This document shows, in pieces, positions 20,966 to 50,648 of a stretch of 64,000 bases of DNA. Where the stretch lies: contig JACPJR010000009.1 in NCBI GenBank assembly GCA_016187565.1, positions 1 through 64,000 of the forward strand, written 5' to 3'. The position numbers and the translations under genes were made by a program. Numbering within the stretch: position 1 is the stretch's first letter; each line of letters starts with the position of its first letter. The notes below the pieces were generated by a model. That model made no database searches and was not told where the DNA came from. It was given only the letters and a program-made list of their open reading frames with translations. Origin of the DNA: Candidatus Woesearchaeota archaeon. GTDB lineage: Archaea; Nanobdellota; Nanobdellia; Woesearchaeales; JACPJR01.

Positions 20966-21130
20966 AGCTTCATCCAAAAAAAGGGTTAGCAGCCTCAGGC
21001 AAAGTCCCATCAAATGATTGAATCCAACCGACAAGGGGGATGTCCCTTACGGGGAATGTCGGCGATCATAGACGACATAGAGGACTTTGAAGCTGCTAAC
21101 TTGAGCGTTACCAAACTGTTGGATGAAGCT
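20966..21130 (+). ncRNA. Candidate structured RNA, rod-like
   Basis: A 165-base segment folds into one long stepped hairpin: 20966-20977 with 21119-21130 (12 bp), 20985-20993 with 21092-21100 (9 bp), 21000-21007 with 21082-21089 (8 bp), 21014-21020 with 21063-21069 (7 bp with one G-U), 21028-21033 with 21057-21062 (6 bp), and a CCC-TTAC-GGG tip near 21044-21053. The single wobble is G-U on the plus strand and would be A-C on the minus, which favours plus. A TATA-like TATTTAAA lies at 20943-20950, about 25 bases before the first stem. SRP and RNase P signature motifs were looked for and not seen. Confidence 0.6.
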
Positions 21131-48125: not shown

Positions 48126-49907
48126 TTAACTCCTTCTCTCTGCGATAACCTGGAATAATGCCTTTGCTGCTTCTTCTGGTCCTTTAGTTTCATAACCAGG
48201 AATTCCTAGTCTCGTCCTAAGTTGAGCAACAATAATGCCGCTCCTGAAAAATGCTTCAAAGAATTTGATTGCGATTGGTTCATGTAGTTCCTTATATTGT
48301 ATGGGCCCAAAGATATTTGCAAAGTAAGTTGTACTCAATCCCTTCTCGGTTGTTGTTCCCTTGGCCATCCGTTTTCCTTCACGAAAAACACCAAGGGCGT
48401 CCTGCGGAGTATGGAGTTGTTGAAAGAGAGGATGAGTAGCATCAACATTTTCATAATTGTTTGCATACAAAAAATAATCAACGGTATATCCCTGAAGAAC
48501 TTCTTGAAGTGTGGTAATGGGCAATATTGCTCGGGCATTTATTTTTTGTGGACTCATAATAATGCTTCTATCAAGATTTCCAAACGCAAATCCTGGTTGA
48601 AGATCATCTAAACGGACAAATGCACCAGTCTCAGTACCATATGCTTTTATTATATCATACGGAGTTAACTCCAGAGAGCCCATATCATCAAAAATAATCG
48701 TCATATCTCGGATGTAGTCCTTTGCTAAAACACGAAACGCCTCCAAAGATTCAGACTTTCCTGCACCGCTATCACCAAAGATAACGACGTTTGCTGACTT
48801 TCCATTCTTCAGCATGATGTTAACCATAGCACCGTGGACAGGTAATCTGCCACGCTTGATCATGATGCTGTTGTGCAATGTTAGCATCATTTTCTTGAGG
48901 TAGCCAAAATACGCATAGGTCTCATGATCTGGAATCAAACCAACAAAATAGTTATGGACTTTGTCTTCATAAAAAATCGTTTGATCCTTATATCCATCAA
49001 ACACGTCATGAGGAATGCCATAGAAAAATATTGCATCTGGCTTTTTTCCTAACTCTGTTTCGTCTGCCAGTTCAAAGAGATTTGCCAAGGACATGCCTAA
49101 CCCGATAAATGTAGTGTTGAAATAAACAAGAACAGTAAGATCTGCAACCTTCGCTGGATAACATAACCATTCTGCTGGTGACAAATGAAGGGATTGCAAA
49201 ATTGCTGAAGCAGTACTCCCAACAACCTGAAACTGACCTGTTCGTTTGTTCATTGGAGGATCAAGAATTAATGGGGGAACAATAAGGACTTGACGAATGA
49301 CAGGAATTTCTTTTAAAAAGGTATATGGCTCTTGGAGATGCGCCATTGGTTTCTTGACGGCAATCGCTGCTGTCTGACAGCCTGCAGGTAGTTGTCGATA
49401 AATTTTTGGATGATCTCCGGTTATATTCTCACAGATATCGCGGTAGACGCCAAGCACCAAATGATTAAGGGATTCAACAGTTCTATTGAAGGTACGGTAT
49501 GGCCGTTTCTCAAAAGAGTGTTCGCTCTCCATCCCGGAATAACAGACCAAGAATCGTTCATATGACCTCCAGAAGTTGTAAAGGGATTCAACCAACTGGT
49601 GAAGTAGATAACTATCCTTAAAATAAGGGGAAAATGCTGGTTCTTTTTGTAAAAGGTCATTTTTTGGTTTTGAGGATAAATGCAGAAGCAGTAAACAAAG
49701 CTGGTCGTCCTGCTCATATGCAGATAATCCTTGAGGAAAAACACCTAGGTATTTGGAGTTATGTCCCCGTAAATGTTCAAGAAAGCGATGAATGGTCTCT
49801 TTGAAAAGAGCAGAACTTAACAATTCATGGGCAGTCTGACAAACATTCCCGGTTGTTTTGATTATTGCTTGATTGCCATGAAATGAAAACGTATCATACT
49901 CTCCCAT
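48126..49907 (-). CDS. PEPCK/HPr-kinase-fold protein
   Basis: The protein is 593 residues from the ATG at 49907 (610 if started at 49958). The second half holds a P-loop GDSGAGKSESLEAF (about 371-384) of the PEP-carboxykinase/HPr kinase type, then IIFDDMGSLEL (Walker B-like, about 406) and DRSIIMSP. The first half is an unknown domain with a helical start. The ATG at 49907 has GGGGTGG just upstream. It may phosphorylate a protein or small substrate, but the true function is unknown; classical PEPCK residues outside the P-loop are not evident. Confidence 0.72.
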   Translation of the reverse strand: MGEYDTFSFHGNQAIIKTTGNVCQTAHELLSSALFKETIHRFLEHLRGHNSKYLGVFPQGLSAYEQDDQLCLLLLHLSSKPKNDLLQKEPAFSPYFKDSYLLHQLVESLYNFWRSYERFLVCYSGMESEHSFEKRPYRTFNRTVESLNHLVLGVYRDICENITGDHPKIYRQLPAGCQTAAIAVKKPMAHLQEPYTFLKEIPVIRQVLIVPPLILDPPMNKRTGQFQVVGSTASAILQSLHLSPAEWLCYPAKVADLTVLVYFNTTFIGLGMSLANLFELADETELGKKPDAIFFYGIPHDVFDGYKDQTIFYEDKVHNYFVGLIPDHETYAYFGYLKKMMLTLHNSIMIKRGRLPVHGAMVNIMLKNGKSANVVIFGDSGAGKSESLEAFRVLAKDYIRDMTIIFDDMGSLELTPYDIIKAYGTETGAFVRLDDLQPGFAFGNLDRSIIMSPQKINARAILPITTLQEVLQGYTVDYFLYANNYENVDATHPLFQQLHTPQDALGVFREGKRMAKGTTTEKGLSTTYFANIFGPIQYKELHEPIAIKFFEAFFRSGIIVAQLRTRLGIPGYETKGPEEAAKALFQVIAERRS

Positions 49908-49999
49908 AACCACCCCACCCATGCTTAGGAATGAGAGTCGATTTATATAGTTTCGCATGTGTATGCTCTTGGATCAGAAATGTAAAATGAGCAGTTAAC

Positions 50000-50186
50000 T
50001 CAGCGCCAATAATGGCAGTGCGACGGTCAAAACCTCACGTATTCGGTTTTGCCCTACGAGCCACTCCGTAGGAGCCTCGGCTCGCCGCACGCCACGTTGG
50101 CGCTGACGAAGCGGGCCCCCTTCGGGGTGCTTCGTAGGATTGCTCGCAAGCAATCCGTCAGCCGCCATCGGCGTGGCGTGCTTTTT
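50000..50186. ncRNA. GC-rich multi-hairpin RNA or DNA element
   Basis: In an AT-rich setting this ~190-base block is strongly GC-rich and packed with perfect stems: 50087-50096/50172-50181 (10 bp), 50102-50108/50156-50162 (7 bp), UUCG-capped GAAGC/GCTTC near 50108-50133, 50138-50143/50150-50155, 50028-50034/50045-50051, 50053-50058/50067-50072, 50072-50076/50079-50083. A further 10-bp helix 50000-50009/50097-50106 is exclusive with the second stem, or makes a pseudoknot with the first. TATA-like AAATATATAATCC (about 50191-50203) supports a minus start; a C(UUCG)G loop and T5 after the last stem support plus. Confidence 0.55.
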
Positions 50187-50272
50187 ATGGATTATATATT
50201 TGGTTAGACAACTTGACTTTACAAGAAAGTAATCTTTATAAGGTTGGCTTATTTTTTCTTGAAGGGTGAGAT

Positions 50273-50648
50273 GATGAAACAAATAACTCCAGTACTTGCT
50301 CCGCATGCAAAAACCATTCGTGCATCGTACGATCCTTTACGAGATTGGCGTATGGATAAAAAGGGCTATTTTCTCATTCGCATCAATCCTGATACCAAAA
50401 CGCTTGAAGTTGGCCACTGCAAAAAGAACAATGTCATTGAAACCCTTGTTATTGGAGATACGCCAGAAGAGATTTACATGACAATTATCCATGAAAAACT
50501 AAGTGATTTTCCACCACATTGTGCATATCTTGGCAAAGAACTCCAAAAGGCATTTATTGCTCGTGCACTAGGAATTCCCTATGTACAAGATGATCCGCTC
50601 GATCTCTCGTCAATTACTTCTCGCAAAAAGAAGTCTCCAAATCCCTAA
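50273..50648 (+). CDS. DUF4346-like protein
   Basis: The 124-residue protein resembles DUF4346, a domain also seen near methyltransferase subunit A-like proteins. Characteristic text is DPLRDWRMDKKGYFLIRINPDTKTLEV and a GKELQKAFIARALGIPYVQD helix. The first ATGs (50273/50276) are preceded by GGGTGAG. A TATA box (TCTTTATAAGG) lies near 50230. The C-terminal tail is basic. No clear function. Confidence 0.7.

Follow-up and report, generated by a model that had tools for sequence, protein, structure and literature searches.

The element at 49981-50223

The window analysed here is a stretch of 64,000 nucleotides from one contig (JACPJR010000009.1) of a Candidatus Woesearchaeota archaeon. Between a gene for a 610-aa protein (48126-49958), whose kinase-like P-loop region gives a weak PEPCK_ATP match below cut-off, and a gene for a DUF4346 (PterinBD) protein (50274-50648) lies the segment 50000-50186, which the first-pass annotation had picked out as a GC-rich, pseudoknot-capable element in AT-rich DNA. 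Its composition is as described, with 62.0% GC against a window mean of 39.6% (in round figures, 62% against 40%), and the GC peak among all 187-nt stretches of the window starts at 50001. The segment is dense in palindromes. Inverted repeats of 10 bp join 50000-50009 to 50097-50106 and 50087-50096 to 50172-50181, nine of ten bases pair between 50025-50034 and 50045-50054, 8 bp between 50137-50144 and 50149-50156, and 7 bp each between 50102-50108 and 50156-50162 and between 50106-50112 and 50129-50135; further perfect or near-perfect stems exist beyond these six. As annotated, the two 10-bp helices (I4 and I5) interleave, several stems are mutually exclusive, and a UUCG cap at 50121-50124 is formed from CCC-TTCG-GGG. 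The fold of the segment beats 200 of 200 dinucleotide shuffles on both strands, with z-scores of -5.08 (plus) and -6.29 (minus). Rfam 15, searched at gathering and at relaxed thresholds, returned no family in the window (the best of three weak hits scored 15.4 bits against a cut-off of 66), in agreement with the annotation's remark that the class is not recognised, and a tRNA scan found a single tRNA-Val, distant from the feature.

Interleaved helices are thus present, although the apparent pseudoknot is better read as two opposed cassettes with a common middle arm, because either cassette can also be found by itself, closed by an outer stem of its own, both in this genome and in others. The mutually exclusive helices follow from the same shared arm. 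The body of the element is two back-to-back copies of one cassette of about 80 nt, and the left half, reverse-complemented and read beside the right half, is the same unit. The left three-way junction (50014-50093, minus strand) is matched by our covariance model R1 at 68.8 bits (E 3e-13), and the right one (50099-50166, plus strand) at 71.1 bits (E 9e-14). Arm A, CAGCGCCAATAATGGCAGTGC (50001-50021, plus), is the outer 5' arm of the left cassette and is complementary to arm B, GCACGCCACGTTGGCGCTGA (50087-50106, plus), the common middle arm, which takes part in I4 and I5 and can pair with A or with C. Arm C, the GTCAGCCGCCATCGGCGTGGCGTGC region (50158-50181, plus), is the outer 3' arm of the right cassette and a near-direct repeat of arm A. 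Units run in the order outer stem, CGAGCC-type hairpin a, GTAGG, hairpin b, CCGTC, outer stem. In the left cassette (minus strand), hairpin b (50025-50054) has the form CAAAACC..GGTTTTG, with variable arms and compensatory changes, and hairpin a (50057-50084) the form CGAGCC..GGCTCG with an inner CTCC/GGAG. In the right cassette (plus strand), hairpin a (50107-50134) carries the UUCG tip, the conserved junction GTAGG (50134-50138) has its partner CCGTC at 50155-50159, and hairpin b (50137-50156) is built from GGATTGCT/AGCAATCC.

The whole element appears to span 49981-50223 (243 bp), non-coding and under 500 bp. On the left is an imperfect terminal inverted repeat, TGTAAAATGAGCAGTTAACT (49981-50000, plus), and on the right a repeat ending in ACTTGACTTTACA (50202-50223, minus), which reads inward as TGTAAAGTCAAGTTGTCTAAC, of TGTAAA.. 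type and imperfect against the left end. These ends are of the same class as TGTTAAGTAAAGTT/TGTAAAGTAAACTT and TGTTAAGTGCACTTTTTAAC/TGTAAAGTAAAATTTTAAAC, found in two relatives (L075 and L074, respectively), and fit the pattern TGTAAAAT.../...ACTTTACA with one mismatch in the first eight bases; this 8-bp core is the only recognisable part of the terminal repeat. At the ends predicted from those two relatives we looked for a target-site duplication and found AGAAA at 49976-49980 and again at 50224-50228, a 5/5 match of which the chance at fixed spacing is 0.2% of positions. Downstream of the element lies a TATA-like CTTTATAA, and the transcript of the next gene therefore probably excludes the element.

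Copies, ends and distribution

The segment is one copy of a dispersed repeat and not a single-copy RNA gene. The first-pass annotation had left open a single-copy element, and had named many dispersed copies with no transcription as the observation that would speak for a REP-like DNA repeat. The first half of this, dispersed copies, was found, and the copies are mobile: the archaeon's own genome (1.94 Mb) holds 29 BLAST matches to the repeat and 42 matches to R1. Full or partial copies of the element number about twenty. The copies are modular, differing in inserts that lie between hairpins or within them. At the starts of four contigs, members of one cassette subfamily agree in all of 140 nt, a fifth copy being 97% identical, and the subfamily has an exact 3' boundary after GGATGAAGC followed by unrelated flanks; identity over this length at four loci indicates that the subfamily moved recently. 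The contig tips share a common 141 nt, and the assembly broke at such repeats.

A second element in the window (20967-21130, 163 bp), with ends RGCTTCATCC/GGATGAAGCY, contains just the cassette's tip hairpin (a partial match to the model at 21029-21061). Elements of this type are flanked by clear 9-bp target duplications at seven further loci or more in the same genome, and their ends are those of L081, an element of another genome. In some copies a separate multi-hairpin insert of about 124 nt (CAAACTTTACC..AACCAGTTG) is present in whole or in part, placed either between two cassettes or within the loop of hairpin a; loci L012, L014, L015, L018, L021 and L023 contrast in this respect with L011, L019, L020, L024 and L026. 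At L029 (around 1550, minus strand) a minimal copy has arms A and C fused and lacks all hairpins, and looks like the product expected from deletion between these direct repeats. Another copy (L129, C17:10139-10243) is chimeric, two element families meeting at the common G-run of hairpin a.

Complete elements with clear ends and a duplication are a minority of copies. Terminal inverted repeats are clear at five loci and imperfect in the window copy. In L081 the whole element reads TGTTAATTT, GGCTTCATCC...GGATGAAGCC, TGTTAATTT, the outer sequence being the target-site duplication. L064 ends in GTATGYGCATAGCATC with an 8-bp duplication (TAAAATGC), L078 in TTTTGAGTTCT with a 6-bp duplication (AGTATT), and L075 and L074 have TGTNAAGT ends (TGTNAAGTNAANTT) with the 5-bp duplications CACCA and TATTT, respectively. 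Duplications in relatives are therefore 5, 6, 8 or 9 bp long. In most old copies no duplication can be recognised any longer, and age has likewise left most of the other copies without visible ends. An end-pairing score of 14 was reached by 6 of 101 real elements and by 1 of 299 decoy pairings. Together, a short gene-free body, terminal inverted repeats, target duplications and dispersed copies, some near-identical, are the features of miniature inverted-repeat transposable elements (MITEs). Cassette-bearing elements fall into at least four classes by terminal repeat or duplication length, which shows the cassette to be an independent module and more than the interior of a single transposon. 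Two end classes, GCTTCATCC and TGTNAAGT, were used to look for an autonomous parent in the archaeon's own genome, a draft assembly broken at repeats, and neither yielded one. The TGTNAAGT end pattern is no commoner in that genome than a reversed control, and no protein-coding gene recurs as a neighbour across 61 loci.

Across the order (Woesearchaeota-type), a group of tiny archaea without cultures, R1 matches occur patchily, in 79 of 288 genomes and 68 of 193 genera, often in many copies, the highest counts being at least 16 per genome. In a phylum-wide draw, all positives among the matches listed belong to this same order. When 84,980 species were scanned with a degenerate DNA pattern, 43 stretches matched, and for 40 the record is named Woesearchaeota, Nanoarchaeota, Nanoarchaeia or Pacearchaeota. 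Two other matches, in CP070655.1 (labelled Omnitrophota) and JAAUSR010000169.1 (Thioploca), place an archaeal cassette beside archaeal-looking genes, and judged by these neighbours the contigs are probably chimeric or misbinned. One further match (L219) was set aside as chance, being unmatched by the covariance model. Viral contigs, phages and plasmids gave no cassette match. A literature search on MITEs, non-coding RNA, transposable elements and palindromes of Woesearchaeota found nothing relevant. The MITE-like family, large and apparently undescribed, has an unusual conserved core.

Selection on the folded strand

The cassette, clover-like in shape, consists of an outer stem with one bulged base, a three-way junction, a hairpin a with a G/C-run tip and a hairpin b that is free in sequence. 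We drew the junction by hand for a first alignment of 24 units, from which R1 was built; here 91.7% of paired cells are complementary against 76.6% when shuffled, and compensatory change is seen in 15 of 24 pairs. With 89 units from the archaeon's own genome and the other genomes collected by then, pairing is 92.2% against 73.7% in shuffles, 372 cells are compensatory against 99, and 18 of 23 pairs have changed on both sides; these counts are not of independent events, because copies within one genome are related. Shifting the partner by a single column already abolishes the signal. A second set of units, from named public genomes that in part overlap the first set, behaves the same way.

No variation is seen in the 89 units at the A of GTAGG, at the G and T of CCGTC, or at the G following that A and its partner C, and the outer stem keeps one bulged pyrimidine. 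Where tandem G.A/A.G takes the place of two Watson-Crick pairs, both change together, in 38 of 38 cases. Mismatches are strongly asymmetric, with G.A outnumbering C.U by 149 to 0 and G.U outnumbering A.C by 29 (distinct rows, approximately) to 7 (p 3e-4). Because a G.A mismatch on one strand is preferred over C.U, and G.U over A.C, one single-stranded fold is under selection, and in each cassette it is one specific strand that is selected to fold by itself. Neither a plain double-stranded palindrome nor passive correction of one arm by the other would yield such asymmetry. The divergent arrangement is shared by all 24 composites, whose two halves show the same mismatch asymmetry. The suggestion of the first-pass annotation that this is a functional RNA accordingly finds partial support: covariation, conserved non-canonical pairs and strand-asymmetric mismatches do mark a selected structure, whereas the dispersed mobile copies speak against a stand-alone RNA gene.

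An additional regularity concerns hairpin a, in which, in all units (50107-50134, for example), the 5' and 3' G-runs match the same C-run. The three runs covary together, as GGGGG/CCCC/GGGG, GAGGG/CUCC/GGAG or AGGGG/UCCC/GGGA, and they may form a pair of alternative hairpins or else a mirror-repeat, triplex-like arrangement.

Possible roles of the cassette

We consider it probable that the locus carries one copy of a gene-free, MITE-like element whose cassette body has a selected fold acting at the level of DNA. Inverted repeats of the TGTNAAGT type together with a 5-bp duplication point to an element moved in trans by a transposase acting on its terminal repeats. For the relatives, their ends and duplications show this mode of movement; for the window copy it is likely by resemblance. 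Strict conservation of shape across the order and between unrelated ends suggests that the fold has an effect of its own. The folded strand would most likely be exposed as single-stranded DNA or as an extruded cruciform, for example at a replication fork, where a protein may recognise it and promote the copying or retention of the element. One correctly folding cassette lies on each DNA strand of a composite; this favours a DNA-level role over one transcript and makes DNA the somewhat more likely form. Tolerance of G.U and sheared G.A pairs counts in the other direction, fitting RNA at least as well.

One possible alternative, which we regard as unlikely but the most serious of those weighed, is that a functional RNA has spread on MITEs: the cassette would be transcribed, and its three-way junction would bind a protein or act as a regulator, terminator or processing site. 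Covariation, conserved junction nucleotides, the coupled tandem G.A (38/38) and the excess of G.U over A.C are all typical of selected RNA folds. Single cassettes, moreover, are oriented towards the downstream gene in 21 of the 30 cases with a scorable one, and prokaryotic MITEs are reported to yield stable transcripts (PMC10969869). Against this, the cassettes of all 24 composites lie on opposite strands, where no single transcript can fold both, yet both halves are equally asymmetric. The window copy has its TATA-like sequence 3' of the element, leaving it probably outside the next transcript, and Rfam offers no match.

Mobilisation of a REP- or BIME-like element by a RAYT, or by another HUH transposase of IS200/IS605 type recognising the GTAGG-hairpin-CCGTC core, seems improbable. 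In bacteria, REPs carry a terminal GTAG or CGTC tag and are often found as opposed pairs (PMC3733652). Hairpin b of the cassette is flanked by GTAG and CGTC, one on each side, and because these are the bacterial tags we tested for RAYTs. The RAYT cut-off (NF047646) was reached in 0 of 288 genomes of the order, and even a weak hit is absent from 14 of 23 high-copy genomes. The cassette is nevertheless commoner in genomes with weak RAYT-like hits (33/71 versus 46/217, p 1e-4), a co-occurrence with Y1 genes that perhaps arises through general IS load. The archaeon's own genome does encode IS200-type TnpA genes; its Y1 matches number five (the four scanned are IS200-like), and none has a cassette nearby. 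At two loci (L059 and L061), IS200-type transposase genes each stand beside a copy of the same gene of unknown nature (MDVNKTQVGLYTVTY.., MKVSKTQAGLYTVTY..). The IS200/IS605 pattern lacks terminal inverted repeats with target duplications of 5-9 bp, which the present elements have. They thus depart from the profile of IS200/IS605 derivatives (hairpins on one strand, with neither a terminal inverted repeat nor a target duplication), and equally from that of a REP, a palindrome of 20-40 bp with GTAG or CGTC at one end, since here the tetranucleotides flank hairpin b inside a larger junction. An IS200/IS605 parentage, raised by the common 3' ends at contig starts, was dropped in view of the terminal inverted repeats and 9-bp duplications. 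Lastly, arms made complementary only by template switching in hairpins, one copied from the other and serving no function, are disfavoured and very improbable: hairpin variants reshuffled among copies, inserts nested within loops and the deletion-like minimal copy would fit, but such correction should remove imperfections, and the bulge, the tandem G.A and the invariant unpaired junction A, G and T persist across 68 genera with G.A mismatches only and never C.U.

A mobile element with a DNA-level fold, the reading we prefer, has partial counterparts elsewhere. Prokaryotic MITEs, the reviewed archaeal examples of which are from Sulfolobus, Halobacterium, Haloquadratum and Desulfurococcus (PMC10969869), are likewise gene-free, under 500 bp, intergenic and multi-copy, with terminal inverted repeats and target duplications, and presumably moved in trans; the present elements differ in their GC-rich body in AT-rich DNA and in sharing one conserved cassette between unrelated terminal repeats across an archaeal order. 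With REP/BIME elements and their RAYTs (PMC3733652) they have in common GTAG and CGTC beside a hairpin, opposed pairs, patchy distribution and compensatory stem changes. They differ in being a three-way junction of about 80 nt rather than a hairpin of 20-40 nt, with tags inside the junction and not terminal, in having terminal repeats and duplications and no RAYT above cut-off, and in their archaeal hosts. The bcr1-type repeats of Bacillus cereus and the BOX elements of Streptococcus pneumoniae are also modular, mobile, structured and intergenic repeats, in other hosts; the likeness drawn here is one of description. Among small non-autonomous archaeal elements with palindromes are the PATEs and IS200/IS605-derived elements of haloarchaea, from which the present ones are set apart by terminal inverted repeats and target duplications.

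A broader interpretation can be offered tentatively. The cassette may be a free-standing three-way-junction module, with invariant junction bases and a switchable tandem G.A, that several unrelated transposon lineages across this DPANN order have captured because a specific protein of the host or the transposon is drawn to its folded strand, whether ssDNA or RNA. It would then be a new kind of mobile nucleic-acid module.

In these draft genomes, elements carrying the cassette explain why assemblies break and why GC-rich 'RNA-like' islands occur, and they counsel caution before such islands are called RNA genes. A selected cassette that occurs in about a quarter of the sampled genomes of the order, inside unrelated transposable elements, is a concrete and countable object. 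It makes testable the question of why short prokaryotic mobile repeats often keep elaborate folds, and whether it is the DNA or the RNA form that is selected.
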